Assembly: GCF_015644665.1 (NCBI RefSeq)
Contig: NZ_JADOBQ010000002.1
Coordinates: 124,001 to 188,000 of the forward strand
Direction: 5' to 3'
DNA: 64,000 bases
Origin: Roseobacter sp. MH60115
Lineage (GTDB): Bacteria; Pseudomonadota; Alphaproteobacteria; Rhodobacterales; Rhodobacteraceae
The notes beneath the pieces were generated by a model. It was given only the letters and a program-made list of their open reading frames with translations, was not told the DNA's origin and made no database searches. Shown here piece by piece: positions 33,375 to 52,648 of this stretch. The position numbers were made by a program, and so were the translations under genes. Each line of letters opens with the position of its first letter. Position 1 is the stretch's first letter.

Positions 33375-34313
33375 ATGGATGCTTTGGCCGCCATTCAGGG
33401 GGAGAGTTCGTGGGCGGATACGCTGCGAACCTATCTTCCGAAGGTGGCGCGCAGTCAGGCGCCTGTCCTGATCACCGGAGAAACCGGGACCGGCAAGGAG
33501 CGGATTGCACAGGCCGTGCATGACCTGAGTCCGCGCAGGCGGCATCGGTTTGTGGCGATCAATTGCGCCGCGTTGCCCGAGGGTCTGATCGAAACAGAAC
33601 TCTTCGGCCATGAGCGGGGGGCCTTCACCGGGGCCGTGACCCGCTACGACGGGCGCGCCGTACAGGCGGATGGCGGCACGCTTTTTCTCGATGAGATTGG
33701 CGAGATGAGCCTGACCGGCCAGGCCAAGCTGCTGCGCTTTTTGGAAGCGGGCAAGATCGACCGGATTGGTGCTACGCAGGAAACCACGGTGGATGTGCGC
33801 TTTGTCGCCGCCACCAATCAGGCGCTGGAGGAGCTGGTGGCAGAGCACCGCTTTCGCGCGGATCTCTACTATCGGCTGAACGTCGCGCGGATCGAAGTGG
33901 ACCCGCTTCGGGCGCGGCCTGATGACATTCGCGTGCTTGCCGAGGGTTTCATTGATGAGTTGAACAGGCGTGACGGCCGTGCGGTCGCCGGCCCGGACCG
34001 ACGGCTGGCGCGGCTCTTCGAAGGCTATGCCTGGCCCGGCAATGTGCGCGAATTGCGCAACATGATCGAGGCGGTTTTCATCGACCCGCCCGAGGGCGAG
34101 ATTACCGTGTCGGACCTGCCGCCCGCCTTTCAGACATTGATTTCCGGCCACCGCACCGTGTTGTCCACCGAAAAGGACGACCTGATCGAGGCATTGAACC
34201 GCACCAAGTGGAACAAGGCGGAGGCGGCACGGCTGCTGAACATGTCCCGGATGAGCGTCTACCGGAAGATCGAAAAGTACCGCATCGCGCGCAGCCCGCT
34301 CGCACCCCGGTAA
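33375..34313 (+). CDS. PspF-like sigma-54 enhancer-binding activator without receiver domain
   Basis: A 312-residue bacterial enhancer-binding protein. It consists almost entirely of a sigma-54-interacting AAA+ ATPase domain (residues 5-235): Walker A GETGTGKERIA, the sigma-54 contact loop GAFTGA, Walker B GGTLFLDEIGEM, and arginine-finger region FRADLYYRLNV. A C-terminal Fis-type helix-turn-helix follows (NKAEAARLLNMSRMSVYRKI). There is no receiver, GAF or PAS domain, as in PspF, so control must come from a partner protein or from its own expression. ATG 33375 follows GAGGGA. It sits directly upstream of a sigma-54 promoter and of an operon ending in an rpoN gene. Confidence 0.92.
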   Translation: MDALAAIQGESSWADTLRTYLPKVARSQAPVLITGETGTGKERIAQAVHDLSPRRRHRFVAINCAALPEGLIETELFGHERGAFTGAVTRYDGRAVQADGGTLFLDEIGEMSLTGQAKLLRFLEAGKIDRIGATQETTVDVRFVAATNQALEELVAEHRFRADLYYRLNVARIEVDPLRARPDDIRVLAEGFIDELNRRDGRAVAGPDRRLARLFEGYAWPGNVRELRNMIEAVFIDPPEGEITVSDLPPAFQTLISGHRTVLSTEKDDLIEALNRTKWNKAEAARLLNMSRMSVYRKIEKYRIARSPLAPR

Positions 34314-34394
34314 CACCGTATCCCTACCGCGTGTTTTGGACAGTGAACGCCATTCGCCCCTTTCGGTCGCTTTGAAGTGGCGGGTATTCCGACC

Positions 34395-34445
34395 CTGTAA
34401 CAGCATCCGCGTCGCGCTGTGACACATGCCTGTGACGGATGTGAC
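34395..34445 (+). promoter_or_regulatory. candidate enhancer (UAS) for the sigma-54 activator
   Basis: Three TGTGAC copies (34418, 34431, 34440) and a CTGTAACAG palindrome-like element (34395-34403) lie roughly 80-135 bp upstream of the expected transcription start, the usual place for enhancer-binding-protein sites. An AT-rich stretch (34470-34497) between them and the promoter could be a bending or IHF site. Binding is inferred. Confidence 0.5.
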
Positions 34446-34501
34446 AGGGCGTGAAATTGTCAAGCGTCTGTAAATAAAAGAAAATCATAAACGTAAGGCC
34501 G

Positions 34502-34517
34502 TGGCACGTTTCTTGCA
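34502..34517 (+). promoter_or_regulatory. sigma-54 (-24/-12) promoter
   Basis: TGGCACGTTTCTTGCA matches the consensus TGGCAC-N5-TTGCA exactly, with GG and GC separated by 10 bases. The start of transcription is expected near 34528, about 20 bp before the first gene. The element lies inside the upstream part of the open frame of the DUF3467 gene, which argues that translation does not begin at GTG 34501. Confidence 0.92.
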
Positions 34518-34548
34518 CCTATTAGAGGGAACAGCGGGAGAACTGCCA

Positions 34549-34923
34549 ATGGCGGATGGTCATGCGCCTCCGAGCGACGGGCGAACGCTTATCGCCGGAT
34601 ATGCGAATTACTTCGAAGTGGGGCATAACCCTTACGAGTTCCTGATCGACTTCGGGCAAATCGACCCGCAGCGCGGAACGGCAACCATCAACAGCCGATT
34701 GGCGCTGGGTCCGACCCATGCGAAATTGCTGATGCGCCTGTTGTCGCGCTCCGTCGAACAGTTCGAACGGGACTTCGGCGCGATTGCCGATGTCCGCGAA
34801 GATGACCCGCTGGCCAGTATTCTCGACATTTCCCCAGATTTTGAACGCCGGGCCGCGGAGGCCCGACGTAAGCCCCGATCCTCCGGGTCGGGATCCGCCC
34901 TCGACGATCCCAAGGACAGGTGA
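34549..34923 (+). CDS. DUF3467 domain protein, first gene of the sigma-54 island
   Basis: A 124-residue soluble protein. The core (ANYFEVGHNPYEFLIDFGQI, then THAKLLMRLLSRSVEQFERD) matches the small DUF3467 family, whose function is unknown. The tail after residue 95 is charged and Pro/Ser/Gly-rich, probably disordered. I chose ATG 34549 because GGGAG lies eight bases upstream and because the alternative GTG 34501 falls inside the -24/-12 promoter. The next gene starts 5 bp after its stop. Confidence 0.82.
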   Translation: MADGHAPPSDGRTLIAGYANYFEVGHNPYEFLIDFGQIDPQRGTATINSRLALGPTHAKLLMRLLSRSVEQFERDFGAIADVREDDPLASILDISPDFERRAAEARRKPRSSGSGSALDDPKDR

Positions 34924-34928
34924 CCCCC

Positions 34929-37900
34929 ATGCGCTCAGACATCAGCCCGAACCGTATCTCGATCAGTGACCGCTATCCCATGCTGGGCTTCACCATCCGA
35001 AGCCACGGGATGCCGCAACTGGCAGAAGTCACGCTGGCAACCGACCCGGCCCTGTTTCGGAATGCGGAGAAACGGTCCCCTGATAACTTCTTCTCCACGG
35101 CGTCGATGGGGCCGCTGCAGATTTTGGAGGGCGAGGCCGTCTATATCGTACCCGCTGAGGTGCTGGCGCGTTTCGTCGGTAAGGAGAAGCTCTACTTCGC
35201 GCTGGCCACGCGCCCGGCGGATCAAAGCACAGGGTATCAGGTGCAGGTCATGCCGGACGCGGACAGTGTTTACATCACGCTTGCGGGGTTGACCGGGCGC
35301 AGCCTGCGACGTGTGCGGATGTTCCCGAACCGCGCGCAACAGGTGCCGGGATACGGCAGTAATGGTAAGGCGGGTCTGACCTGGGCCGGGGACACCGCGC
35401 GACCCAGCACGGATGAGGTGGACGCACCGCAGAACGGGCGGGCGGGGCAGAACGGGCAGGCCTCTCAAACGCCAAACGGTCAGAACGGCGCTGAGGCACC
35501 GGCGGCCAAACCCGCGCCTTACAACGATGGATTTGGCGATCTGCCGCCGTTGCCCGAAGACGCGCCGCCCGCCGCGCGTGTCGTGCCTGGGCCGGAGGAG
35601 GAGATCGACGCGGACGACGTCGCCGAGAATGAGGATGACGACGTCAGCGTCGAGGAAGAGGCCGAGATTCAAGCGGAGGAGGAGACCCCTCCCGAAGACG
35701 CAGCCATCGCGGCCTCGCTGGGCGAGACGCAACCGGCTGTGCGCGACGTGCGGGTCGGCGAGAAAATCGCGGCCCAGGCGCCGGAGACATCCGCGATGGG
35801 CACGGCGATGAAGATCGCCCTCGACGCTGCCATCCTCGCCAATCCGCCGCTTGCAACCACGGTTGCGGCCATCCGCCTTGCCAACCGTCAGGGTCTGTCC
35901 GTTGGTCTGGGCATTGCCGTTTCAGGCGGGTTCGCCGCCGGGGGCGCCCTGGGCACGGGCATCATCTTTGCGCCGGGCAACAAGATGGGCGTCTACGGCG
36001 TGGGCGAGCTTGATCTCGGGGCGATTTTCTCGATCAGTGGTACCATACAGATGACCGTTCTGAACGGCGGTGTCTCGGCCTTCGAAGGGATCACCTATGT
36101 GGCCGGGTTCTCTGCGGGTGAGGGGATTGTGGGCGGCGGTGCTGCCATCTTCGACACCAGCAACGAATTCATCGGTGTCTCGGTTGAGATTGGTCTCGGC
36201 ATCGGCTCGCCGCTGGATGTCTATGCGGGCGTGCAGCGCGGCGTGTCGCAAAGCCTGGGTTTTGCAGCGGCCTTCGGCGCGAACCCGGTTCTGGCCGAAC
36301 CGATGCTGCGCGACAGCAGCGCCGACGCGCGCCGCTATGCGCCCCGGTGGCGGCACCTGCTGCGCTGGCGCGTGCCCTCCGCCATCCGCTCCGAGGTCAG
36401 CAGACGCGGGTTCAGTATCCAGACTTTCGCCAGCGCGCGCGGTGATCTGAATCTTGATCTGCTGGAGGTGAAAGTCAGCCGCCTGCCGTCCGGCCAATCC
36501 GCCGAAGACCTGATCCGGCACATCCGCATCAACATGGCACGCTTCGTCAATCCGACGCTGACCCGGTTCGATTTCTTCTCCGCAGCGGATTCGCGCAAAT
36601 GGAGCGGGTCGAGCCCCGAAGGCACCATGTTCAACCTGCGCATCCCCGGCGACAACGCGGCGGTCGTGGCCTCCAAGGTGGAGCCGCGCAAATGGCGTTT
36701 TACCACCATCGAAACCCCTACAACGGGCACGCATCCCGTCTCCGGTCACCGCGAATTCGGCATTCGGGAAACGGATGACGACGGCTATATCATCTACACC
36801 CGCGGTGCGGATCGGTTCACCTATCCCAGCGCGATGGGCGCGCTCGAAACGCCTGCTTTCGCCGTGGCGGAACGGCTGTGGCGCAGTTTCCAGGAAAAGG
36901 TGGCCGAACATGTCAATCGCAACGGGGGATCGGCCCGTGTGTTGACCCCGTTCCGGCGGCATTTCTCCTGGCGTGATACCACGCGTGCGCTGGCGGGCTC
37001 GGGCCGCAGCGGGTCGCAGGCCCTGGGTGCGAACAGCGACCCCTACACGCTCGAAATCAAGTACCGCATGTTCATTCCCTCCCCGGCGATCACCGGACCG
37101 TTCAGTGATGACTACGGCGGCGACGGGCGTGGGTTCTCCTACGATCAGGGCAGCAGCCGGGGCGAAATCGTGGCGTCGGTCAAACTGACCCGTGGCATGG
37201 GCATCGAACGCCTGCGCGTTCTGCGCCGTCATTGGAGCGAATCCAAGGCCTATGACAGCGATGATACCTATGCGGTCAGCGGCAAACCGGACTGGTGGCT
37301 GGGCAGACGGTCAGGTGCCACGCCTACAGAACGCAAGACGCTGCGCGCCAATGACGACAATCTGAACGTCGAGATGGGCACCTCCGGGCGCTGGGCGATA
37401 CAGGCAGCGCTGGAGAATGCCTCCGTTGTCAGCGTGAAGGCCGAAGGATCTATGCCGCTGTCGCGTGTTGCCCCCGACATCGACGCCGATGTTGCCGTCT
37501 TCATCCGCATGCACAACGGTCAGATCCAGGTCAAGGCTGGTGGGCGGCATGACGGCTTCCCCTGTCATGAGCTTTATGTGAATGGCCGATCGATCTATCG
37601 CTATGATCCGGTGGCCGCCGGGAACGGACCCAGCTCGCTGGCCGGGTGGGGAGATACCGAGGTCAACACGCGTTGGGTCACCGTCGCGCGCCCCGGATCA
37701 AGTGCGCAGGCGCTTGCGATCAACGAGAGCTTTACGATCAATTGGGATGATGTCGATCAGGTGGCGCAGCCCACCAATGCAAGCTGTTGGGCCGCCGCCG
37801 CCGCCATGGTTGTCGGCTGGCGGGACAAGATCAGCCTGTCGCCGAGCATGGTTGCTGAAATCGCGGGCAGGCCGATCAAAAAGGGCCTGAACCCGGATAA

Positions 37901-39695
37901 TGTGCAGGACCTTGCAGAGGCTCTGGAGCTGACAGCAATGGCGGGGCAGAGCTTCACCGCCGAAGGGTTCCGCGATCTGCTGGAAGACAATGGCCCGCTT
38001 TGGGTCGGCGTGGCGCTGCCCGGATCGCTGCACGCGGTTGTCGTGACCGGCATGTACAACGATGAAAATGGCGACCTGATGGTGCGGATCACGGACCCTT
38101 GGGATCGGATCGTCGGCACGCCGGGCACGCCTGGCAGTCACAAATCCACCCATCTCACCGGCAGCCGCTACATCATGACATGGCCCGCCTTCCAGCAGGA
38201 ATATGAGCTGATGGGGGCGTCAACCACCGGGCGGTCCTTCCAGATATTGCATGCGGGTGGGCACCACGGTCATACGCTGAACCGGGGAACGCAGGCGCCG
38301 CCTCCGGGCTATGCGGCTGCGCTGATGAAGGATGCGGCATCTGCGCCGCCTTCCGCCCCTGCACCCACACCCAATGGTGCGGCGACGCCTGCAGCGATTG
38401 CCGTCACGATTTCGGAGGAGGTCGCGCCGATTGCGCCTGCCGCCGTGATCCCCGTGAGCGGTCCGAATGGCGTGCCGACCGAAACACGCTGGACCACCGC
38501 CGTGACGGAGATATTGAGTGCCGATCATGTCGCGGCGCTGGCGCAACTTCCGGCATTGGCGGCCAAACGCGGTTGGACCATTGCCGTAGGGCTCGACACC
38601 CCGCAAAGCTACGCTGCGCCGGGCGTGGGCGTGGCCCCCGGTGGTACGATCTTCCGCTATGGTGGCGATCCCTCTGCTGCGGCAAGCGCTGCAGACCCGG
38701 CCAAGCTGCTGGTGACCATTGCCGAAGGGGAGCCGCAACTCTTCACGCAATGGGCCAAAGCACGCTCTTTCGCAACGGATACCCAGGTGACCGGGGCCGT
38801 GCTGCTGGATGCCGCTGATCTGCCGCTGGCACTGGCCATGCGCCTTGCGTCAGGCCCGACACTACCAAGCCAGATCGAGGCGATTTCGACGGCTGTCACA
38901 ACCGCCTTTACCCCCAGTCCGGCAGCAGCTGCACCTGCGCCGGCGGTACCTGCCGTGCCCCCGCCCGCTGCGCCTGTGGCGCAACCACCGGCATCCGAGG
39001 GTGCACCACAGCACCCGGGCAACGGTGCAGCTGCGGCCCCTGCAGTTCCGCCCGCCGCCGCCTCGGCGCTGGCTGCGATGATGCAGGCGAGCGCGGGCAC
39101 GCCCGCACCCGGCCCACAGAACGGCGCGATGCCGCCCATGCCCGGACAGCCGGTGCCGCCCCCCATCGAACCACCGATCATGCCACCGCAGCCAACCCCG
39201 CATCCGGACGGAGATTTTCCGCCGCCGGGTGTGACGATCCACCGATCGGACGTGGACCGCAACGGCGTGCGCTATGCGCTCTTCCTGATGGACGGCAGCG
39301 TATATCCCGACATGCCGCCTGCCGTCGCGCAGCCGCTGATACCGGGGCAACAGGTCGTGCTGGACGACTGGCCCTATCTCGATGGGCCATCGGGCCGCAG
39401 CAAGGGCGGCGTCGTGCTCGACTGGTCCTACGGCGGTGGAGCCGTGGGCAATGTCCGGACGGCCCCCGGCAGCCCGGCTGTGCACGATGGGTGGGCCGTT
39501 GCCGTCACCACGGATGTAGGACCTGGGCCATCGGATTCGGACGAAACCAAGCTGCAGGTCACCGTCCGGACGGCCTTCACCAAACAGGGGGAACAGACCC
39601 GGACCGGTGTCTGCCACGTGATCCTCTGCGGCTCCGGCAAGCATGAGGTCAGCCACGCGGATGAGAGCCTCGCCCCGCAAGCGGCCATGGCATAG
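34929..39695 (+). CDS. 1588-residue multidomain protein with papain-like cysteine protease domain
   Basis: A very large protein with no signal peptide. Residues about 1-150 are a conserved-looking N-terminal beta domain (ISISDRYPMLGFTI, AVYIVPAEVLARFVG). Residues 150-270 are a Pro- then Asp/Glu-rich linker. Residues 280-460 are Gly-rich with long repetitive beta-like segments (GLSVGLGIAVSGGFAAGGAL). Residues about 935-1080 hold a papain-like (C39/C70-type) domain with Cys953 in TNASCWAAAAAMVVGW, His1035 in LPGSLHAVVVTG and Asp1056 in ITDPWDR, so the triad appears intact. Pro/Ala-rich linkers follow (around 1115-1165 and 1325-1430), then a final beta domain. It may be a scaffold or effector that is self-processed. 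ATG 34929 is chosen over GTG 34920, which overlaps the preceding stop. Confidence 0.82.
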   Translation: MRSDISPNRISISDRYPMLGFTIRSHGMPQLAEVTLATDPALFRNAEKRSPDNFFSTASMGPLQILEGEAVYIVPAEVLARFVGKEKLYFALATRPADQSTGYQVQVMPDADSVYITLAGLTGRSLRRVRMFPNRAQQVPGYGSNGKAGLTWAGDTARPSTDEVDAPQNGRAGQNGQASQTPNGQNGAEAPAAKPAPYNDGFGDLPPLPEDAPPAARVVPGPEEEIDADDVAENEDDDVSVEEEAEIQAEEETPPEDAAIAASLGETQPAVRDVRVGEKIAAQAPETSAMGTAMKIALDAAILANPPLATTVAAIRLANRQGLSVGLGIAVSGGFAAGGALGTGIIFAPGNKMGVYGVGELDLGAIFSISGTIQMTVLNGGVSAFEGITYVAGFSAGEGIVGGGAAIFDTSNEFIGVSVEIGLGIGSPLDVYAGVQRGVSQSLGFAAAFGANPVLAEPMLRDSSADARRYAPRWRHLLRWRVPSAIRSEVSRRGFSIQTFASARGDLNLDLLEVKVSRLPSGQSAEDLIRHIRINMARFVNPTLTRFDFFSAADSRKWSGSSPEGTMFNLRIPGDNAAVVASKVEPRKWRFTTIETPTTGTHPVSGHREFGIRETDDDGYIIYTRGADRFTYPSAMGALETPAFAVAERLWRSFQEKVAEHVNRNGGSARVLTPFRRHFSWRDTTRALAGSGRSGSQALGANSDPYTLEIKYRMFIPSPAITGPFSDDYGGDGRGFSYDQGSSRGEIVASVKLTRGMGIERLRVLRRHWSESKAYDSDDTYAVSGKPDWWLGRRSGATPTERKTLRANDDNLNVEMGTSGRWAIQAALENASVVSVKAEGSMPLSRVAPDIDADVAVFIRMHNGQIQVKAGGRHDGFPCHELYVNGRSIYRYDPVAAGNGPSSLAGWGDTEVNTRWVTVARPGSSAQALAINESFTINWDDVDQVAQPTNASCWAAAAAMVVGWRDKISLSPSMVAEIAGRPIKKGLNPDNVQDLAEALELTAMAGQSFTAEGFRDLLEDNGPLWVGVALPGSLHAVVVTGMYNDENGDLMVRITDPWDRIVGTPGTPGSHKSTHLTGSRYIMTWPAFQQEYELMGASTTGRSFQILHAGGHHGHTLNRGTQAPPPGYAAALMKDAASAPPSAPAPTPNGAATPAAIAVTISEEVAPIAPAAVIPVSGPNGVPTETRWTTAVTEILSADHVAALAQLPALAAKRGWTIAVGLDTPQSYAAPGVGVAPGGTIFRYGGDPSAAASAADPAKLLVTIAEGEPQLFTQWAKARSFATDTQVTGAVLLDAADLPLALAMRLASGPTLPSQIEAISTAVTTAFTPSPAAAAPAPAVPAVPPPAAPVAQPPASEGAPQHPGNGAAAAPAVPPAAASALAAMMQASAGTPAPGPQNGAMPPMPGQPVPPPIEPPIMPPQPTPHPDGDFPPPGVTIHRSDVDRNGVRYALFLMDGSVYPDMPPAVAQPLIPGQQVVLDDWPYLDGPSGRSKGGVVLDWSYGGGAVGNVRTAPGSPAVHDGWAVAVTTDVGPGPSDSDETKLQVTVRTAFTKQGEQTRTGVCHVILCGSGKHEVSHADESLAPQAAMA

Positions 39696-39707
39696 GGAGC
39701 CGCGCGC

Positions 39708-40805
39708 GTGACCGGTAAATATCATCAGGGACTTCCCCCACCACCGCCTGCCCCGGCACGGGCGGTGGCTGCCCCGCTGGCACGAGACATCTTTGGCAAC
39801 GAAATCCCGCCACAGCCCGGCGCGCAGCCGCAACAACCCTTTCAGGATCCGGCCGCGGAGAAGAAACCGCCCCGCGAAAAGGCCACCGATGCGCTGGGGC
39901 GGCGCACGGGCGCGCTGCTGGATGAAATCGACTTCCCGGCCTTTGTCGCCTCCCTCGTTGACGGCACCTTCAACGGTATCACCGACAGCGCCATCCGGCA
40001 GATGGAGGCCTATGCCGATCTGGTGGCCGCTGTTGCCAAGCCGCTAGACCAGTTTGCCCGCGAAAACGTGACCCGCAATCAGGCGCGGGACTGGCTGGCA
40101 GAACAATACCCCGGTGACGTGCAGCTGGTGAACACCGGCAATGAATACCAACTGACACCGCGCCAGGCCTCCGAAGAGGAGTTCACCGAACCGCCTAGCT
40201 GGCTGGCGGATTTCGGGCTGGACGGCAATGAGCTGTCGGGCGAGTTTCTGGAACAATCCGTTCTGCCCGCCGCGCGCGAACGGGTGGCGCAACAACGGCT
40301 GTCGACACTGGCGACCATGGTGCTGACCGGCATGAACCGCGTCGTGGTCAAGGACGGCACCATCGGTGCACGGCTGCGGTTCCGTGCTGCGGCCTCGGAC
40401 AGCGTTGCGCTGGATTTCGCGACCTCGAACGATCCCGCATCCGGGCAGACGCAATGGGGGCGGCGCGGCACGCAGCGCGGGTCCGCCGTGACCAAGGTGT
40501 CGACCATCGACGTCAACGCGCAGTCGGATTCCGAGCTGGAAGCGCGGCTCTATGGCGATGTGAAAATCAACTTTGCCTCCGAGACCCTGCCGCTCGACCG
40601 CTTCATGGATCAGGCGGAAATGGCCATTCTGGAGCGCCACTCCCGCAATCGGGCCGCCATTGCGCGCGCCGAACAGCAGCCAGTTGCACCGACGCCGGCA
40701 CCAACCCCGGCACCGGCCCCTGCGCCGGTCGCACCACAACCGGCTGCACCGGCACCTGCGGCGCTCCCACCCGCGCCTAATCCGCAGGGAGGCGGCGGAT
40801 CATGA
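39708..40805 (+). CDS. island paralogue family member A (365 aa)
   Basis: First of four related proteins in the island. Shared block 1 (FPAFVASLVDGTFNGITDSA, IRQMEAYADLVAAVA, then NQARDWLAEQYP) is at residues about 83-140. Block 2 (ATMVLTGMNRVVVKDGTIGA) is at about 203-222, and block 3 (VKINFASETLPLDRFMD) near 285. It lacks the N-terminal helical segment found in the other three and ends in a Pro/Ala-rich tail of about 40 residues. No signal peptide or membrane helix. GTG 39708 is used; GGGAG lies eight bases upstream. Family unknown to me. Confidence 0.78.
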   Translation: MTGKYHQGLPPPPPAPARAVAAPLARDIFGNEIPPQPGAQPQQPFQDPAAEKKPPREKATDALGRRTGALLDEIDFPAFVASLVDGTFNGITDSAIRQMEAYADLVAAVAKPLDQFARENVTRNQARDWLAEQYPGDVQLVNTGNEYQLTPRQASEEEFTEPPSWLADFGLDGNELSGEFLEQSVLPAARERVAQQRLSTLATMVLTGMNRVVVKDGTIGARLRFRAAASDSVALDFATSNDPASGQTQWGRRGTQRGSAVTKVSTIDVNAQSDSELEARLYGDVKINFASETLPLDRFMDQAEMAILERHSRNRAAIARAEQQPVAPTPAPTPAPAPAPVAPQPAAPAPAALPPAPNPQGGGGS

Positions 40806-41050
40806 GCCTTCTGCGTCCCCTGCATGAAACCCTGACGGATATCGCCGATGGTGCGATGACCGAAACGCTGGTGGCCGCAGGTCACTTGCCGCTGCGGGTT
40901 ACCTCGTTGGAAATGTCCGTGCCGCTGGATGTCCGCTGGGCGGCGGATGAGGGCGTTTTTCAGGCCGATTTCCCGCTGTTTCGGCGCCGCACTGAATTTG
41001 ATCCGGAACCCGCACAGCTGACCATCACGCTGGGGGAGGTGCCGGTATGA
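40802..41050 (+). CDS. small conserved-looking protein of the sigma-54 island
   Basis: An 82-residue soluble protein of alternating hydrophobic pattern, probably beta-rich (LRVTSLEMSVPLDVRW, then ADFPLFRRRTEF and QLTITLGEVPV). It overlaps the preceding gene by 4 bp (ATGA) and the following gene by 4 bp (ATGA), which is why I consider it a real gene despite its size. Function unknown. Confidence 0.75.
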   Translation: MSLLRPLHETLTDIADGAMTETLVAAGHLPLRVTSLEMSVPLDVRWAADEGVFQADFPLFRRRTEFDPEPAQLTITLGEVPV

Positions 41051-43319: not shown

Positions 43320-43375
43320 GCTGAGCCTGTTCGCCCGTCCATTCCCGCCATCGAGCACAATCAAGGAGACTTGAC

Positions 43376-45127
43376 ATGGCACTTTACAAAACCCGTTTCC
43401 GCGATATTGCATTGCGGGAGATCAAGGAACACCTCAAGCTGACCAACCGCAAGGCGCAGTTGGACAAGAAGATCGCGGACAAGCTGCAACTGGCGCAGAC
43501 CGAGCAGGAAGAACTCGACCGCATCAACAAGGTGCTGAAGGTCATCGACGCGGCCACGGACCCCAAGGAAACGGCCAACCCGCTCTTTGCTGCCTTCCGT
43601 TACCTGATGCAGGACGAGGATTGCGCCAACAAGGAAACGTTGGTCGGGCATGATGACGGCAGGCTGAAGTTTGCGAAGCTGGCATCTGATGGCTCCAAAA
43701 CGCCGAAGATGTCCTCGGTGTCGTCGCCCAAGGATGAGAACATCGTCCTGGCGGCGCTGACCCTCGGCATCCTGGAATTGGAAGGTACGGATGCGCCGCA
43801 GATCATCGCGGCCTCAAGCCCGGTGCCTGCCGGGTTCTGCATTGTCCCGGACCGGTCGGACGCGCGCTGGAACAGCGTGTCGCAGGCCTTCTACTCCGCC
43901 TTGGGTGAAGCCAAGGGCATGGAAGACCTTGCCCGTCTGGTGCTGCCGATCCTGGCGGAAGAAGGCAATGCGGACGGCCGCGGCGGTCGAGACCCCGAGG
44001 TGATGGTCCGCGAGTTCGCGGAAATCATGCGCGAACTGGTACGGCGCGGTGTTTCGGCAGATGAAATCCAACTGCGCCGCCGCGTGAACGAAGCGCTGAA
44101 CCGTTTTCAGCATATCGACGAGGCCGGGCCCTATACCCGCGTCGCCACCCGCGACAACGGCATCAACCCGCCTGATCTGGAGGCGCTGGACCGCTACAAC
44201 CTTGTGCCGGAAAACATCCGGTTGATGGGCGTGATGTTCGTCTCGGCGATGTTCGATGAAATCCGGGCATTCCAGTGTCTGGACTACTGTGTCGAAGCAA
44301 GCCAGCGGGGCGAAATCGTTCTGGTCGGCAATAATGATGTGGGCCAGTGGCTCTTCAACTACTGGCGTGACGCGCCCAACCGGTTGAGCGATCTGGAGCG
44401 GCGTACATTCCTGTCGCAGACCATCGGTGTGCCGGGCGGCGAGCCAGGGTATTCGCGCAATGAGAATGCCCAGCCGCTGATGCTGCACCTGTGCAGCAAC
44501 GTCTCAAAGCTGATCACCCAGTACCGCGAGGCGGAAAACGTCTCGTTCATCTTCCAGCAGCGTGCCCGCAAGGCCGCGCGCGATCTGGCGGCGAACCTGT
44601 CATTGCACGGCTACGGCATGGCCTACTATGCCGCGGGCGAGCTTCAGAAACAGCTGAACTTCGTGATCGATGTGTTGAGCCACCCGGAAATCCGCGCGAA
44701 CTTCGGGGCGCGGGACATGTGGCAGGTCTGTGATCAGATCAATACGCTGCATCTGCCCGGCGGGCCGAAGAACACGCTGAAATATCAGACGCTTGCGACC
44801 TGCGGGACGATCATCACCGCGTGGCTGGCCAACAACGCCCATCACATCATGTCGAGCACCGGACAGCTGCTGGATATGGGCGAAGTGCGCAATCCGTCGC
44901 CCTATCCGCCCGGGCAGAAGGCGATCACGCATCCCAATGATTTCGACTTTGTGAATGCCTGCGAACTGTACCTGTCGGAATACGCGATCCCGGATACGGA
45001 GACCAACCAATATGCGGCGATGCGTGCTGCGGAAGAGCAACCGTCCCGGCCCATCCAGATGCCTTCGGTGGTGCAGGAAATCGTGGGCGACATTGGCGAC
45101 CTTGGCATTGGTCTGAGCCGCCACTGA
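43376..45127 (+). CDS. 583-aa island protein with N-terminal coiled coil
   Basis: A soluble protein of unknown family. Residues about 10-55 are a strongly charged, heptad-like coiled coil (REIKEHLKLTNRKAQLDKKI). The remainder is mostly helical. Residues about 277-505 are related to almost the full length of the 344-residue protein encoded at 48816: both contain a WR...ER..F....GV pattern, an LC segment, and NLS...E....... followed by FGARDMWQV or FAARDVWDV. AAGGAG precedes the ATG; a 56 bp gap separates it from the protease gene, the largest gap within the operon apart from that before rpoN. Confidence 0.76.
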   Translation: MALYKTRFRDIALREIKEHLKLTNRKAQLDKKIADKLQLAQTEQEELDRINKVLKVIDAATDPKETANPLFAAFRYLMQDEDCANKETLVGHDDGRLKFAKLASDGSKTPKMSSVSSPKDENIVLAALTLGILELEGTDAPQIIAASSPVPAGFCIVPDRSDARWNSVSQAFYSALGEAKGMEDLARLVLPILAEEGNADGRGGRDPEVMVREFAEIMRELVRRGVSADEIQLRRRVNEALNRFQHIDEAGPYTRVATRDNGINPPDLEALDRYNLVPENIRLMGVMFVSAMFDEIRAFQCLDYCVEASQRGEIVLVGNNDVGQWLFNYWRDAPNRLSDLERRTFLSQTIGVPGGEPGYSRNENAQPLMLHLCSNVSKLITQYREAENVSFIFQQRARKAARDLAANLSLHGYGMAYYAAGELQKQLNFVIDVLSHPEIRANFGARDMWQVCDQINTLHLPGGPKNTLKYQTLATCGTIITAWLANNAHHIMSSTGQLLDMGEVRNPSPYPPGQKAITHPNDFDFVNACELYLSEYAIPDTETNQYAAMRAAEEQPSRPIQMPSVVQEIVGDIGDLGIGLSRH

Positions 45128-45148
45128 AGCCCTGAGAGGAGACATGTT

Positions 45149-46180
45149 ATGTTTACGCATCCATTGGCCAACCGGGTCAAACACAAGCTGTCGCGATGGG
45201 CTGATCATCTGAACACGGCCAATCCGGCGGGGGATCTGGAGCCGCTGATTGAACGGACCTTTGTGCGGGATGATCCGGCCGCCTATGCCCGCAATATGCT
45301 GATGCCCATGGCCCTGCCGGTCGAACCCTCCTTTGCCGAGGATCAGCCCGACAAGATGCGGATCACGCTGCAGCCGCTGCCGCCCGAAGCCCCGGGGATC
45401 GACCGGCGTGATACGGTCACGGCGGCCATGCGGTCTTTTGTCAACGGGCTGGCGGGGCGCGAGGCGGTGCGCTGGTTCGATCAGGCCTCGGAACCGCACC
45501 GGGGGTTTCACGGCAATGCCGCGCTGAACTATGGCGCTTTCTTTGGCACCGCACACGATCGCAACGGGCTGCACACCACCAAGGTCTATTACGAAACGCC
45601 CGAAGGGCAGGGGGCGATCGACGGGCTGCCCCCCAGCCTGGTGCGGGTGGTCATGACCGCGCTGCAGGGCATTCCGGGCCTCAAGCCGCTTTTCACCACC
45701 ATTGCCGCGCGGCGTGATGCGGGAGAGCAGCGCCTGACCTTCGCCTGTACCGCGCCGCTGAAGCTGGCGGACCTGCAACCGACACTGGATGTGCTGGGGT
45801 TGGGGCACCGGTTGGGCAGTATCATGCAAACGCTGGGTCTGGTTCTCGGCGGCAAGTTCGATCTGCCCGCGCACAGTACACTTCTGGCCTTTGGCCACGG
45901 ACCCGCCGGGCCGGATTTCGAAATCTACGTGTTGCTGAGCGCCATCGACGACGTGCCGCCCAGCTTTCTCAGCCTGCTGACGATGGGGCTGGCGGAACGG
46001 CCCAGATCACTGCGGGCGCTGGAACGCTGGATGGGGGCGCTGACCCCCGAAGATGACTATTGGCCGGGGCGTTTTTCGATCATCAGCCTGCGGACCAACC
46101 GCGTCAGCCCGCCGCGCGTGAGCCTCTACCTGCGCCCCGCGGAATTCGAACTTCCCACGCCCGAGCAGACAGCCGCCTGA
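45149..46180 (+). CDS. 343-aa island protein, unknown (possible prenyltransferase-like fold)
   Basis: A soluble protein with no signal peptide. The second half has a repetitive alpha-beta rhythm ending in FSIISLRTNRVSPPRVSLYL, which loosely resembles the last strands of ABBA-fold aromatic prenyltransferases; the resemblance is weak and I do not assign that activity. ATG 45149 follows GAGAGGAGA. It is separated by 21 and 17 bp from its neighbours, so it is clearly part of the operon. Confidence 0.7.
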   Translation: MFTHPLANRVKHKLSRWADHLNTANPAGDLEPLIERTFVRDDPAAYARNMLMPMALPVEPSFAEDQPDKMRITLQPLPPEAPGIDRRDTVTAAMRSFVNGLAGREAVRWFDQASEPHRGFHGNAALNYGAFFGTAHDRNGLHTTKVYYETPEGQGAIDGLPPSLVRVVMTALQGIPGLKPLFTTIAARRDAGEQRLTFACTAPLKLADLQPTLDVLGLGHRLGSIMQTLGLVLGGKFDLPAHSTLLAFGHGPAGPDFEIYVLLSAIDDVPPSFLSLLTMGLAERPRSLRALERWMGALTPEDDYWPGRFSIISLRTNRVSPPRVSLYLRPAEFELPTPEQTAA

Positions 46181-46197
46181 CATAAGGAGCGCGTCCC

Positions 46198-47577: not shown

Positions 47578-47589
47578 AGGGGCCAGCTG

Positions 47590-48816
47590 ATGCAGCCCGC
47601 ACATCCTCCTGACTGGACAAGCGCCGAAGCGCTGGATGCCGCGCGGCGGCAGACCCGGGCATTTCTGGAGGCAATGCCCAATTACGAGGCACTGAGCCAG
47701 ACTGAGAAGCAGTCGATGGCTCGGAACACCGCCAAGGTCCTGTCCTACATGACCGACCCCGACGGCGTGCTGTCCGAAATCGGAGACGGTGATGCAGCAC
47801 CCCCACCACACCGGCCCCCGCCCGCGGCGGCCCTGTCGGATGCGGCGGTGAATGCCACCAAGGAGGCCCTCTCCGAGAGTCCCGGTTTTGCCGGACAGGA
47901 TTTCGTTGCCGGTGCGGTGGAGCAGGGCGTCGAGCAATACGGCGAGTTGATTCAGAAGGTGGATTTCCCCAAATTCGTCGGCGGGCTGATCACCAATGTG
48001 TTTCAGGCCATGGTGGAGGCCAGCATCGAACAGATGCGCGCCTATGGCGAGTTGATCGCGAATGTCAGCAAGACCGTCGATCAGTTCATGGCGGACAATA
48101 TCAGCCAGTCCGCCGGGCGCGACTACATGGCCGAAAAATACCCCGGCGAACTGGGTGTCGGCTTCTTCTCCAGCGCTGACAGCTTTGCCGAAGGCGGCGA
48201 GGACGCCGGTGCTGAGACGCAGGCCCGGCTGGAAGCGCGCGGCGAGGATCCGGAGGTGTCGCTGGCCCGCATCAGCAAGGAGATGAACGTCAACCCGCCG
48301 ATATCGGATATATCGGATGCCGATGCGGAACTGCGGCTGGTCACCGCCGCCCGGCTTGAAATGGCCAAGTCCCGCCAGCAACTATTGAGCTCGATGGTCA
48401 TGCTGGGCATCAACCGCATTGTGGTGACGGATGGATCGATCCGCGCGAAAGTCATCTTTGACATGCGCGCCCATGACACTGCCGGGCGGCAATACACCGC
48501 ATCGATGCACGACAAGAAAACCGATGCCTCCTCGTTCAGTGCGCGGGCCGGTTATGGGTCATGGTATTCGCCGGTCTCCGGCTCCATCGGCACCTCGACC
48601 AGCAGTGAACATGTGGCGACGGTCGGCTCCGCCGTGGACGAGACATCGGAATCCAAGGCCGAGGTCAAATCGCGGCTGTCGGGTGAGGTGCGGGTCAACT
48701 TCAAATCCGACTACCTGCCGCTCGAAAAAATGGCGACGCCGGGCATGATTTCCACCATTCAGGGCAATTCCAGCCCGTTCAATCCCAATGCAGACCCAGC
48801 CGAGGGAGGCGCGTGA
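47590..48816 (+). CDS. island paralogue family member C (408 aa)
   Basis: Third paralogue and the closest to member B: block 3 reads VNFKSDYLPLEKMATPGM in both. Block 1 (FPKFVGGLITNVFQAMVEAS, IEQMRAYGELIANVSKTVDQ, then GRDYMAEKYPGELGVG) is at about residues 124-185, and block 2 (QLLSSMVMLGINRIVVTDGS) near 264. The N-terminal helical segment (RRQTRAFLEAMPNYEALSQT) is shared. A Ser/Tyr/Gly-rich loop fills the space between blocks 2 and 3. Function unknown. Confidence 0.78.
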   Translation: MQPAHPPDWTSAEALDAARRQTRAFLEAMPNYEALSQTEKQSMARNTAKVLSYMTDPDGVLSEIGDGDAAPPPHRPPPAAALSDAAVNATKEALSESPGFAGQDFVAGAVEQGVEQYGELIQKVDFPKFVGGLITNVFQAMVEASIEQMRAYGELIANVSKTVDQFMADNISQSAGRDYMAEKYPGELGVGFFSSADSFAEGGEDAGAETQARLEARGEDPEVSLARISKEMNVNPPISDISDADAELRLVTAARLEMAKSRQQLLSSMVMLGINRIVVTDGSIRAKVIFDMRAHDTAGRQYTASMHDKKTDASSFSARAGYGSWYSPVSGSIGTSTSSEHVATVGSAVDETSESKAEVKSRLSGEVRVNFKSDYLPLEKMATPGMISTIQGNSSPFNPNADPAEGGA

Positions 48817-49847
48817 TGATACATCAACCGCTCTTTACCCATGCTCATGCGACCCAACCGCCGCCCGCGCCGGAAGAGGTGCTGGACCAGCTGCTGGAAG
48901 ATGGCAGCCGTCACGCCGCCGCTGCACAGGCGTCGGTGTTCGCGGTGGGTCTCGATATGCTTGGCGATATCGAGCTGCCCCCAAGTGCCGCAACCCAGGT
49001 GGACCGCGCGCAGATGCGGGCGCTTGGGGCGCTCTATCTGGCGGCTGATCTGGAGCCTGCGGGTATCATCTCTTCTGTGGAAACGCTGTCGTCTCTGGCC
49101 TCCTCTGGGGCGCTGGGTATTGATCTGGGCCCGGTGGCAGGGCCCTTGCACGCTTTCTGGCGCAAGCGTCATCAACGTCCTGATCCATCCGAGCGCGGGG
49201 CGTTTTACGCCCGGCTCTTCGGTGTGTCATACGGCCCCGCCCCGGCGGATGGCGTCGCCAACATGGCCTTCGAAGCGCGGATGCTGGAGCTCTGCGAGGC
49301 GATCTACAGATTGGACGAACAACAGGCGCGCTATTCCAATGATGCGCCTTCCGCGAATACGGCGCGCATCCGATCCGCTGCGCGGGGCATGTTGGGCAAC
49401 CTGTCGCGCGCGGGCGGTGGCATCACGCCGTTCCTTGCAACCGAATTGATGGCGGCGCTGAAAGAGGCGCTCGCGATCCTCAAACACCCGCATCTGCGTG
49501 GTCTCTTTGCGGCGCGGGACGTCTGGGACGTAATCGCAGGCATCCGCAGGCGCGCCCGGATGACCGGGGGTGATCCGCGCATGTTCGTGGATCGGGGCCG
49601 CGCGGGCATGACAATCATTGTCTGGCTGGCGGATGCCGCCGAACGGTTACGACAATACGGCCAACCGATTGTCGGACGCGGTGATCCGGTCATCCCGGCG
49701 GCTGTGGAGTGGTTGCAGGCCTCGCTGACGATCAGCGAGTTGCACGCGCGCACCCAAGCGCCCGCACCGCCACCGCCGGGGCAAGGGGGGCTCTGGGGCC
49801 AGGGGAATACCGCGCCGGTGTCGGATTGGGCCGACCTGGGGGTGTGA
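48816..49847 (+). CDS. 344-aa-class island protein, paralogue of the 583-aa protein
   Basis: A soluble, mostly helical 343-residue protein. Residues about 63-290 match residues about 277-505 of the 583-residue protein (for example MRALGALYLAADLE, LHAFWRKRHQRPDPSERGAF, and FAARDVWDVIAGI). It lacks the coiled-coil N-terminus of that protein and has a Pro-rich tail. ATG 48816 shares one base with the stop of the preceding gene and follows GGGAGG. Pairing of two unequal paralogues suggests a hetero-assembly; this is inference. Confidence 0.75.
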   Translation: MIHQPLFTHAHATQPPPAPEEVLDQLLEDGSRHAAAAQASVFAVGLDMLGDIELPPSAATQVDRAQMRALGALYLAADLEPAGIISSVETLSSLASSGALGIDLGPVAGPLHAFWRKRHQRPDPSERGAFYARLFGVSYGPAPADGVANMAFEARMLELCEAIYRLDEQQARYSNDAPSANTARIRSAARGMLGNLSRAGGGITPFLATELMAALKEALAILKHPHLRGLFAARDVWDVIAGIRRRARMTGGDPRMFVDRGRAGMTIIVWLADAAERLRQYGQPIVGRGDPVIPAAVEWLQASLTISELHARTQAPAPPPPGQGGLWGQGNTAPVSDWADLGV

Positions 49848-49851
49848 CGCC

Positions 49852-51315
49852 ATGACTGCGGTCGCCGCCCTCCCTGCAGCGCCGAACCGGCCCCGCAATG
49901 ACGTGCGCCACGGTGTCCGCGCCCTGCTGACCGCCGCTGAAGGGTTCGACACGCTTGATCCTCAAACCCGTCTGGATGTTGCCAAATCACTGGTACGTAT
50001 TTCCTCCACCGCGCTGACACTGGCCGAAGAAGCGGGGTCCGATCCGCCCTCGCCGCTGCCCCGCAAACGCCGCGCGCCGCTGGCAGAGGGTCAATCTGCC
50101 GGGCGCGCCTATTCCGGCACCGCTATCGACCAGATCGCGCCCCAGACAGAGCGCATTCTGAACGCAGTCTCCTTTCCGCGTTTCGTGGGGGAATTGATCA
50201 CGGGCGTGTTCAAGGCGATGAATGAATCGAACGAACAACAGCTTGAAAGCTATGTGGAATTGATCCGCAATGTGGCCGCGACCACCGACGGGTTCGCCGA
50301 TGCGAACATCGGCGACATGGGCGCGCGCCAGTGGCTGGTGGAGCGGTTCCCGGGTACCTTTCGCATCGAAGGGGACACGGAGGAAGGGTTCGACAATCCA
50401 AACGAGATGTCGCCGGACGAGCGGGCGGAATGGATGGCGGAGCGGGCGGAGAACCAGCGCCTTGAACTCAGCCCCGGGGCGGAAATGCCGTCCGAAGGCG
50501 CGTTGCGGACGGCGCTTGGGGTTCCAAGCGGTCAATCCGTGCCCACGGGAAGTCCGGAGTCTCTGGTGGGTCCCGTTCGCACGCTGCTGGCGCGCAACAA
50601 ACAGCAGATGCTGGCCACGATGGTGATGATGGGCATGCAGCGGATCGTTATCGATTCCGGTCGTCTGAATGCATCGATGCGGTTTCACATTGATGCCTCC
50701 AGTGCCGCGACGGATGACCGTGGCTCCCGTTTCGATGTGCGCAATGAGGTTCAGGCCGGGGTTAAGGCGCAATTTGGCCCCTGGGGAGCCTCGGCCAAGA
50801 TGAAGAACACCATCGGCTATGTCTCGACCGAGCGGACACAGACCGAAGAGGAGGTCAACGCGGACCTCGAGCTCGACAGCGCGGTGGAGCTGATTTTCCG
50901 CACCGACTACGTGCCGCTTGAGCGGCTGGCGGGCACGGGCGATGTGAACCGCATTCGCGTAAATGCGCTGAACCCGACCGAAGAACGGCGCGTGGCCGAG
51001 GAACGCAGGACAGCGCGTGAAACCCGGCGGACCAGCCAGCGCAATCAACGCAGCCAGAACCTGAACCAGGGGCTGCAGCCAACACAGTTCACGCAAGGTG
51101 ACGAAGAGCTGGAGGTACCGGACCCCACCGGAGCTGAAGAAGAGGGGGCGGGCGAAGAAGACGCCAACGTCGAAGAAAGCGGCGGCGAGGCAGCCGCAGA
51201 AGATGGTGGCGCACAGGAAGAGGCCCCCACCGACGGCGAAGGTGGTGGCGAGCCTGACCCCACGGATGAGGGGGCCACCCAAGAAGGCGGCGAAACCGCC
51301 GAGGAGGCTGCGTGA
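49852..51315 (+). CDS. island paralogue family member D (487 aa), acidic tail
   Basis: Fourth and most divergent paralogue. The N-terminal helical segment (DVRHGVRALLTAAEGFDTLD), block 1 (FPRFVGELITGVFKAMNESN, then LESYVELIRNVAATTDGFAD), block 2 (QQMLATMVMMGMQRIVIDSG) and block 3 (ELIFRTDYVPLERLAGTG) are all present in order. After block 3 comes an Arg/Gln-rich stretch (about 380-410) and then about 75 residues dominated by Glu, Gly and Ala, probably disordered. Function unknown. Confidence 0.77.
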   Translation: MTAVAALPAAPNRPRNDVRHGVRALLTAAEGFDTLDPQTRLDVAKSLVRISSTALTLAEEAGSDPPSPLPRKRRAPLAEGQSAGRAYSGTAIDQIAPQTERILNAVSFPRFVGELITGVFKAMNESNEQQLESYVELIRNVAATTDGFADANIGDMGARQWLVERFPGTFRIEGDTEEGFDNPNEMSPDERAEWMAERAENQRLELSPGAEMPSEGALRTALGVPSGQSVPTGSPESLVGPVRTLLARNKQQMLATMVMMGMQRIVIDSGRLNASMRFHIDASSAATDDRGSRFDVRNEVQAGVKAQFGPWGASAKMKNTIGYVSTERTQTEEEVNADLELDSAVELIFRTDYVPLERLAGTGDVNRIRVNALNPTEERRVAEERRTARETRRTSQRNQRSQNLNQGLQPTQFTQGDEELEVPDPTGAEEEGAGEEDANVEESGGEAAAEDGGAQEEAPTDGEGGGEPDPTDEGATQEGGETAEEAA

Positions 51316-51376
51316 CTTGCCCCTCGACCGAAACGCGTTGCTGCCCTAGACTGATGCGGTCCGCAAGAGGACGATC

Positions 51377-52648
51377 ATGATGCAACCAGACCTTCGCCTT
51401 GTTCCCAAACCGGCGCTGCATGTCAGTGCGCGGCTGTGCGGTATGGTCGGGCTGCTGCGCATGAACAACGACGAGTTGAGCCGCCACGTCTCCGAAATGG
51501 CCGCGCGCAACCCGCTGCTCGATTTCACACCTACCGGGCGGGGCGGGCAGGATGCCTATGACGCGCCGGTCGTTGCAGCCGAAGACAGTCTTTATGCGCA
51601 TGTCCTGAGCGCAATCAATGTGGCTTTCGACGATCCGTCGCAGCTGCGGGTTGCGCATGCCTTTGCCGAAGCGTTGGAACCCAGCGGCTGGTTGGGACAG
51701 CCGGTGGCCTCCATCGCCGAACATGCGGGCGTGACAGTACGGCAGGCGGAGGCCGTCCTGGCCCGTCTGCAGGATTTTGAACCGACCGGGCTATTCGCCC
51801 GCGATTTGGCCGACTGCCTGCGGCTTCAGTTGATCGAGAATGGCGATTGGGATGACGCGGCTGCGGCCGTCATCGCGCATTTGGGCGTTATGCTCGTAGG
51901 GGGTGCCGATGCCTTGACCGATGCCACAGGCCTCGCGCCCGGCGTTGTCGCGGACAAGCTGGCAGCTATCCGTGCCTGCAACCCCAAACCCGGTGCCGCG
52001 TTTCAGCAGGACGATCCCAGCCTGCGACGCCGCCCCGATATCATCGTGCGCAAGGAGGCGCGCGGTTGGCAGATCGAACTGGATCGATCGACATTGCCGA
52101 GTTTCGATCTGATGCGTACGGGCAAGGCCGCTGATCCGATGCTCGCCAAATTGCGCCGTGATGCGCGCTGGCTGGTCAATGCGGTGCGTCTGCGCAACCA
52201 GATGACGCTCGATGTGGCGCGGACGGTGATTGGCCATCAGGTGGGGTTTCTAGAACGTGGCACGCTTGGGTTGAAGCCGCTGCGCCGCCGCGACGTGGCT
52301 GAGCGGTTGGGCGTGCATGAAAGCACGGTGGGGCGTGTCGCAACGGGGTTGCTGGTGCAGACACCTGTCCAGATGCTTGAACTGACGCGTTTCTTTTCCC
52401 GCGCGCTTGGACGTAAACGCGGGCGGCACGCATCGCGCCGGAAACTCAAGGCGCTGCTGCGCGACATGATTGTCGCCGAAGATCCCGACAGCCCACTGAC
52501 CGATCAGGCGCTTGCCGGGATGCTGTCCAGACGCGAAGCCAAGGTGTCGCGCAGGACGGTCGCAAAGTACCGACAGTCGCTTGGCATCGAAGGCGCCCCT
52601 GCGCGGGCGGGCTGCCGCACGTCCGTGGGGGCAACGACTAACGTGTGA
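51377..52648 (+). CDS. rpoN: RNA polymerase sigma-54 factor (RpoN paralogue), divergent region I
   Basis: A 423-residue sigma-54 factor, last gene of the island. The RpoN box (SRRTVAKYRQ, residues 391-400) that reads the -24 element is preserved, as are the core-binding region and the -12 helix-turn-helix region (RRDVAERLGVHESTVGRVAT). Region I (LRLVPKPALHVSARLCGMVG, then LLRMNNDELSRHVSEMAARN) keeps the NPLL end but has lost the usual Gln-rich LRQSQxLxMTPQLQ start, and the acidic region II is nearly absent. Main housekeeping rpoN genes normally sit beside hpf/ptsN, which are not here, so this is a second copy. It overlaps the convergent phytochrome gene by 11 bp. Confidence 0.92.
   Translation: MMQPDLRLVPKPALHVSARLCGMVGLLRMNNDELSRHVSEMAARNPLLDFTPTGRGGQDAYDAPVVAAEDSLYAHVLSAINVAFDDPSQLRVAHAFAEALEPSGWLGQPVASIAEHAGVTVRQAEAVLARLQDFEPTGLFARDLADCLRLQLIENGDWDDAAAAVIAHLGVMLVGGADALTDATGLAPGVVADKLAAIRACNPKPGAAFQQDDPSLRRRPDIIVRKEARGWQIELDRSTLPSFDLMRTGKAADPMLAKLRRDARWLVNAVRLRNQMTLDVARTVIGHQVGFLERGTLGLKPLRRRDVAERLGVHESTVGRVATGLLVQTPVQMLELTRFFSRALGRKRGRHASRRKLKALLRDMIVAEDPDSPLTDQALAGMLSRREAKVSRRTVAKYRQSLGIEGAPARAGCRTSVGATTNV

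Follow-up and report, generated by a model that had tools for sequence, protein, structure and literature searches.

The 64,000-nucleotide stretch analysed here (the window; Roseobacter sp. MH60115, contig NZ_JADOBQ010000002.1, positions 124,001 to 188,000), from a genome with roseobacters as close relatives, carries an island made up of a sigma-54 activator gene and, starting 235 bp after its end, an operon of 13 co-directional genes in the order DUF3467, C70 carrier, A1, an 82-amino-acid (aa) gene, Trypco2-like, S8 subtilase, B1, C, A2, A3, B2, A4 and rpoN (Table 1). An initial annotation made from the sequence alone had recognised the activator, a sigma-54 promoter, the co-directional operon and the RpoN at its end, and these were confirmed, as were its overlaps of 4 bp and gaps of at most 61 bp (measured at -4 to +61 bp), but it had counted 12 genes after the promoter instead of 13 because the 82-aa gene (40802-41050) was overlooked. 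It had also left most of the genes without a known family, and several of the core genes indeed match none.

A profile search of a genome collection with B1 gave 61 loci (loci and genomes are numbered L and G below), and the ten core genes (carrier, A1, Trypco2-like, S8, B1, C, A2, A3, B2 and A4) were complete and colinear in 48 of them, with the contig ending within the block in 12 of the 13 incomplete loci. By the initial annotation's own criterion, genes occurring separately in related genomes with no conserved neighbourhood would have counted against its reading; instead, ten to eleven of them are passed on together in a single colinear block. Among the hosts that carry full loci are Roseobacter, Ruegeria, Sphingomonas, Erythrobacter, Burkholderia, Massilia, Ramlibacter, Chitiniphilus, Lysobacter, Xanthomonas, Aliikangiella and two Cellulomonas (Actinobacteria). 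The block is uncommon in every group: B1 was found in 2 of the 18 other genomes of the genus (G002 and G015) and in 1 of 294 others sampled across the family (G319), and the block was present on one of 72,556 plasmids, a Burkholderia pyrrocinia replicon on which A1, the 82-aa gene, Trypco2-like, B1, C, A2, A3, B2 and A4 are annotated as hypothetical. Phage records gave no match to B1 or A3, and viral contigs none to B1 patterns. The G319 locus, from another genus, is a divergent and partly rearranged block with a carrier-like protein of 961 aa (L137, G319:C35:32000-51500), and a Pyrinomonadaceae metagenome-assembled genome has a B1-like gene alone (L060, 7783-8679) and, within 12.2 kb, none of the remaining block genes.

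Table 1. Features of the island, in coordinates of the window (bEBP, bacterial enhancer-binding protein; HTH, helix-turn-helix; ORF, open reading frame; ABBA, alpha-beta-beta-alpha)
Feature	Position	Strand	Basis
bEBP, sensorless sigma-54 activator, 317 aa	33360..34313	+	AAA+ with GAFTGA, Fis-type HTH
Putative enhancer region, TGTSACA half-sites	34390..34450	.	Upstream of -24 element
-24/-12 sigma-54 promoter TGGCACGTTTCTTGCA	34502..34517	+	Exact consensus; site in 19/19 activator loci
DUF3467 protein, 124 aa, operon gene 1	34549..34923	+	Pfam DUF3467 E 1.2e-13
Multi-hydrolase carrier, 1591 aa	34920..39695	+	Pfam Peptidase_C70 E 2.9e-24, DUF3238 E 1.2e-5
A1, family A, 365 aa	39708..40805	+	Alignment; colinear in block
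Small gene, 82 aa	40802..41050	+	ORF, 4-bp overlap at each side; in 46/48 full loci
Trypco2-like protein, 275 aa	41047..41874	+	Trypco2 matches among homologues
S8 subtilisin-like protease, 482 aa	41871..43319	+	Pfam S8 E 8.3e-40
B1, 583 aa, highly conserved	43376..45127	+	Profile query that gave 61 loci
C, 343 aa, DMATS-type (ABBA) prenyltransferase fold	45149..46180	+	Predicted structure
A2, family A, 459 aa	46198..47577	+	Alignment; colinear in block
A3, family A, 408 aa	47590..48816	+	Alignment; colinear; AlphaFold2 model
B2, 344 aa, shorter B1 paralogue	48813..49847	+	hhalign E 2.9e-26 to B1; colinear
A4, family A, 487 aa, acidic C-terminal tail	49852..51315	+	Alignment; colinear in block
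RpoN (sigma-54), 423 aa	51377..52648	+	Pfam CBD, DBD; NCBIfam TIGR02395

The sigma-54 promoter and its activator

The activator, read from a TTG start codon with an in-frame ATG at 33375, matches Pfam Sigma54_activat (E 4.7e-66) and HTH_8 (E 9.6e-13), and the Pfam scan found no N-terminal sensor domain ahead of its activation domain. The GAFTGA motif was kept or nearly kept in all 19 homologues; among the activation-domain loci of its own genome (L004-L015) it occurs in the island's protein only, one other having GAFNGA.

The sole exact match to TGGCACN5TTGCW in the 64-kb window is TGGCACGTTTCTTGCA, where the initial annotation had placed its consensus promoter. Since this pattern has 9 exact matches in the whole genome compared to 4 for the reversed pattern, an exact match by itself is modest evidence; seven of the nine lie inside open frames of at least 150 codons, the exceptions being the island's own and L020. 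The promoter is convincing because it is conserved in position across the activator loci, a strong -24/-12 site being present 41-107 bp upstream of DUF3467 in 19 of 19. With both strands of each locus considered, this site was strictly the best in 14 of the 19, tied in L034, L041 and L042 and beaten in L046 and L047. DUF3467 most likely starts at its ATG (34549), GTG 34501 being a mechanical ORF start which overlaps the promoter, and it occurs in the same 19 of the 61 loci as the activator and in none of the loci without it.

In the stretch between activator and operon the commonest 7-mer was TGTCACA/TGTGACA (15 of 20 loci), and these half-sites lie 50-125 bp upstream of the -24 element, the distance expected for an enhancer. 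At the island they lie 84 and 62 bp upstream of that element, and the roseobacter loci L031 and L032 have three, spaced 22 bp. In 14 of 20 loci the best match to a TGTSACA palindrome anywhere in the locus fell, without a tie, in this stretch, with the motif derived from those same loci; four related Sphingomonas loci lack it, and the island's best palindrome match (three mismatches) was not above chance across the whole window.

RpoN and the exchangeable regulatory head

RpoN matches the Pfam core-binding (CBD, E 3.4e-33) and DNA-binding (DBD, E 2.9e-40) domains above their cut-offs and NCBIfam rpoN_sigma TIGR02395 at 280.8 bits (cut-off 277.35), has the RpoN box RRTVAKYR, and falls just under the cut-off for region I (AID; E 3.3e-4, 20.9 bits compared to 23.8). 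Whole-genome searches with CBD and DBD found it to be the one convincing sigma-54 of the genome (4.76 Mb, 99.96% complete), the other DBD match being below cut-off at 22.1 bits and covering 40 of 160 positions, so that it is not the "second" sigma-54 of the initial annotation. As it is the sole sigma-54, the activator the only one with GAFTGA and seven of the nine promoter matches lie inside open frames, sigma-54 in this genome looks dedicated to the island, though it may have a few further targets. The 3' ends of rpoN and of the convergent gene for a bacteriophytochrome-like kinase (52638-55172) share 11 bp, and rpoN is followed by the same neighbours in G002 and G015.

An rpoN gene adjoins the block in 3 of the 61 related loci (L031, L032 and L033, in two Roseobacter and Ruegeria sp. 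Ofav3-42), and in these three genomes it is the only convincing sigma-54. When 49 genomes (50 of the 61 loci submitted) were searched, sigma-54 was present in 47, which include the genomes of all 19 activator loci, and the other activator-bearing hosts have a separate sigma-54 gene (around E 1e-65). The two genomes without it, Cellulomonas humilata and Ruegeria R13_0, both have BTAD/HTH heads and no activator at the block. A further block-bearing actinobacterium, Cellulomonas Root930, has a sigma-54 DBD match of E 3.7e-27 (L191, G066:C1). RpoN was the least conserved of the island proteins against L032 (82%, compared to 92-99% for the others), and against L033 it shared this place with the 82-aa protein (53%, compared to 67-85%).

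Within the genus, 11 of the 18 other genomes have no convincing sigma-54, and five (G003, G005, G006, G007 and G016) have a divergent one at a site apart from any such block, beside genes which, judged by eye, we take to be a monooxygenase-like cluster (L131, L133, L134 and L135) or phage-tail sheath- and tube-like genes (L132). As these five divergent rpoN genes stand beside other operons, cargo-borne rpoN may be a habit of this genus and a private sigma-54 a general transfer strategy there.

The head formed by activator, promoter and DUF3467 is found in 19 of the 61 loci. In all eight of the activator-less loci tested the upstream protein matches BTAD (E <= 0.01), seven of them over the cut-off, and the eighth (L089) has a Trans_reg_C HTH over its own cut-off. 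Because the Cellulomonas blocks fall inside the clade that bears the activator (support 1.0) but themselves have BTAD regulators, a swap of heads accompanied the move to Actinobacteria. The cassette can thus have either a sigma-54 or a SARP-type head in control, which makes at least two that are interchangeable, and the description of a self-contained sigma-54 island stands for the activator, promoter and sigma factor found here but not for the block at large, with rpoN adjacent in 3 and the head present in 19 of 61 loci. L089, in Ruegeria sp. R13_0, is a second and distant block lineage in a roseobacter without sigma-54, where a winged-HTH/BTAD-like regulator replaces the activator. Six activator-less loci (including L079:1821-2144 and L062:1502-1852) have a protein of about 107 aa in the place of DUF3467 before the carrier, for which no Pfam match was found.

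The carrier and its companion proteins

Pfam, NCBIfam, PHROGs and PADLOC were each applied to part of the proteins. The carrier is built of a constant N-domain (residues ~1-160), a variable middle, here with Peptidase_C70 at 942-1062, and a constant C-domain (~1440-1591). Across 45 homologues the N-terminal 160 and C-terminal 150 residues were nearly always there while the middle varied; the C70 catalytic residues were kept in 40 (Cys956) and 42 (His1038) of the 45, and an amidase-like motif was found in 22. Among 35 carriers from blocks, Pfam modules were Peptidase_C70 (32), Trypsin_2 (19), Trypsin (16), Amidase_2 (16), C39_2 (12), C92 (11), DUF3238 (7) and NlpC/P60 (2). The N-domain occurs in 93 database proteins, for only part of which a place in a block is established, and 91 of them bear between one and four Pfam domains from a set of eight; counted by eye, there are 23 Pfam combinations (19 if both trypsin models are merged), with C70 in 74 and Amidase_2 in 46 of the 93. 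The two ends of the carrier are therefore constant and the modules between them, most of which are peptidases or peptidoglycan amidases, can be swapped, which is the pattern expected of exchangeable cargo. The papain-like protein, which the initial annotation had seen as one of two proteases processing the assembly, looks more like this cargo than like an enzyme of maturation; for processing, which is possible, the subtilase would be the better candidate.

Both proteases retain their catalytic residues, the subtilase triad (Asp183, His236 and Ser402) being present in 56 of 56 homologues, and, in agreement with the initial annotation, neither they nor any other island protein has a signal-like N-terminus by hydropathy. 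Nor was a clear membrane helix found in the island proteins by 19-residue hydropathy (maxima 1.75 for RpoN and 1.60 for the large protein). The subtilase reached 160.7 bits against the mycosin model of type VII secretion, below its cut-off of 278.75. The four paralogues that had been noted, A1-A4, do align (26-30% identity to A1, MAFFT), and B1 and B2 form a second set of paralogues; A1 has no Pfam match at E <= 1, and none of 22 homologues of B1 gave a convincing one. Trypco2 was matched at E <= 1 by 20 of 37 homologues of the Trypco2-like protein (best 2e-4), the island's own protein scoring E 0.02, below cut-off.

Protein C is predicted to form a ten-stranded alpha-beta-beta-alpha barrel of the dimethylallyltryptophan synthase (DMATS) type. 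It differs from the DMATS-type aromatic prenyltransferases CymD, PriB and IptA, to which it has about 14% identity, in having Q-x-x-T-F in place of their R-x-K-x-Y-like strand and in being encoded in a multi-protein operon away from any metabolite pathway.

A contractile injection system or phage tail was considered and rejected, as PHROGs gave no sheath, tube or baseplate match and B1 and A3 are absent from phage records; of the ten proteins scanned with PHROGs (A3 and S8 left out) DUF3467 alone gave a match, and the family it hit has no assigned function.

Proposed function and known counterparts

We propose that the block is a mobile cassette for an inducible, cytosol-made protein assembly which prepares an exchangeable multi-hydrolase effector, and consider this proposal to be evenly poised. 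PspA and PspF are the model for an activator restrained by a partner protein, and here the activator may likewise be kept inactive in trans, with DUF3467 the candidate partner as it is found only with the activator. Once released, the activator would allow sigma-54 RNA polymerase to fire at 34502-34517, and rpoN as the last gene of the operon would close a positive loop. In this lineage the head consists of the sensorless activator, the TGTSACA half-sites, the -24/-12 promoter and DUF3467, and the cassette's own sigma-54 completes it, as the host lacks another. The four A and two B proteins would form a scaffold with the Trypco2-like protein, the parts would be matured by the subtilase and the carrier's own proteases, and C would prenylate a partner or bind a tryptophan-like group on it. 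The loaded assembly may then exit by a non-Sec route or by lysis, and its hydrolases would act on the walls and proteins of other cells.

A bolder form of this proposal, which we advance tentatively and hold to be somewhat improbable, is a new effector-delivery apparatus in which a soluble assembly of A and B, neither phage-like nor membrane-bound, loads a carrier with one to four swappable hydrolases, the prenyltransferase-fold protein fastens cargo or particle to membranes by a prenyl group, and, in roseobacters of a genus mostly without sigma-54, cassettes travel with a private rpoN, making sigma-54 itself mobile cargo.

Several points weigh against such an effector assembly. Sequence and comparative evidence bears on its regulation; assembly, export and target are inferences, and DUF3467 is a candidate anti-activator by analogy only. 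The A3 model was of low confidence (AlphaFold2, pLDDT 69.4) and gave weak fold matches and no confident one. Protein C itself hits nothing in Pfam or NCBIfam at E <= 1, the prenyltransferase model finds nothing in its own genome, and the best homologues of C reach E 1.3e-4 and 4.3e-4, short of the curated cut-off; of the catalytic Glu and the basic and Tyr residues that bind diphosphate, E59, R71, K145 and Y147 are largely kept but a second basic set appears replaced (in a weak profile alignment, E 0.028). As the DMATS model misses C and one basic motif looks replaced, C may be non-catalytic. The peptidoglycan amidases of a protein lacking a signal could act inside the cell or be harmless cargo, and no toxin-immunity partner was recognised, judged only by reading the operon.

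Chief among the rivals, though we consider it unlikely, is a conflict (defence) system acting inside the cell, in which a peptidase cascade with a Trypco2 adaptor shuts down or kills the infected host cell. The Trypco2-like gene, the joint occurrence of trypsin, papain-like and S8 peptidases and the patchy, mobile distribution all suit it, and conflict systems with several such peptidases and with Trypco2 beside trypsin are described in PMC7159879. However, Pfam scans of the block proteins showed no NTPase domain besides the AAA+ of the activator and no nuclease or TIR-like component, PADLOC matched the ten proteins scanned to generic subtilase and IetS models only, peptidoglycan amidase modules suit an extracellular target better, and a dedicated inducible sigma-54 or SARP head would in our judgement be unusual for defence. 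That all the proteins look soluble and unexported, in a strict and stoichiometric gene set, would also fit an intracellular housekeeping or stress assembly (a compartment for proteolysis or storage, for instance) that plays no part between cells, but the very patchy occurrence of B1 within the genus and family and the swappable wall-hydrolase modules speak against this, and we regard it as distinctly doubtful. Pairing an S8 protease and an ABBA prenyltransferase is a theme of cyanobactins, and a natural-product pathway in which the DMATS-type barrel and the subtilase modify and cut a peptide or protein precursor would draw support from the match of the subtilase to the PatA family (E 9.4e-26). 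This match, at 90.7 bits, is well below the cut-off of 421.05, no YcaO or short precursor gene was recognised, and neither the large A and B proteins (four and two) nor a multi-hydrolase carrier of 900-1800 aa fits, leaving such a pathway very improbable.

The regulatory logic of the block, a cargo-borne sigma-54, is ordinary; no description of the block itself was found in the open-access literature searched, which does not show that none has been printed. With a ten-gene core that is strictly colinear, common to Proteobacteria and Actinobacteria and made largely of families unnamed in Pfam, NCBIfam, PHROGs or PADLOC (as far as the proteins were scanned with each), the block is a new and tractable system. 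The switch that turns it on is located to the base pair and, because rpoN and the activator have no visible other partner, an rpoN knock-out in this genome should silence the block alone. The block also makes transfer of a sigma-54 regulon testable, as its lineages keep the head and use the host rpoN, bring an rpoN with them or swap to a SARP regulator, and a prenyltransferase barrel outside a metabolite pathway raises the question of bacterial protein prenylation.

Known systems resemble the cassette in part. Polymorphic toxin systems (PMC3482391) likewise join a constant part to exchangeable enzymatic domains, but the modules of the cassette lie mid-protein between constant ends, several to each protein, and an immunity gene was not recognised on reading the operon. 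The conflict systems of PMC7159879 share a Trypco2-like protein and trypsin-like, papain-like and S8 peptidases with the cassette, in which no NTPase or nuclease core was found and which has families A and B, a DMATS barrel and wall-amidase modules. For sigma-54 itself the nearest likeness is the fla1 locus of Rhodobacter (Cereibacter) sphaeroides, a gene cluster of the same bacterial order, gained by horizontal transfer, in which rpoN2 sits with the activators FleQ/FleT (PMC7277832); similarly, RpoN3 is described as acting with its own activator AprX (PMC11999139). C. sphaeroides has four rpoN genes whereas the genome studied here has that of the cassette alone, and the cargo of fla1 is flagella while that of the cassette is not, most relatives of the cassette using the host rpoN or no sigma-54.

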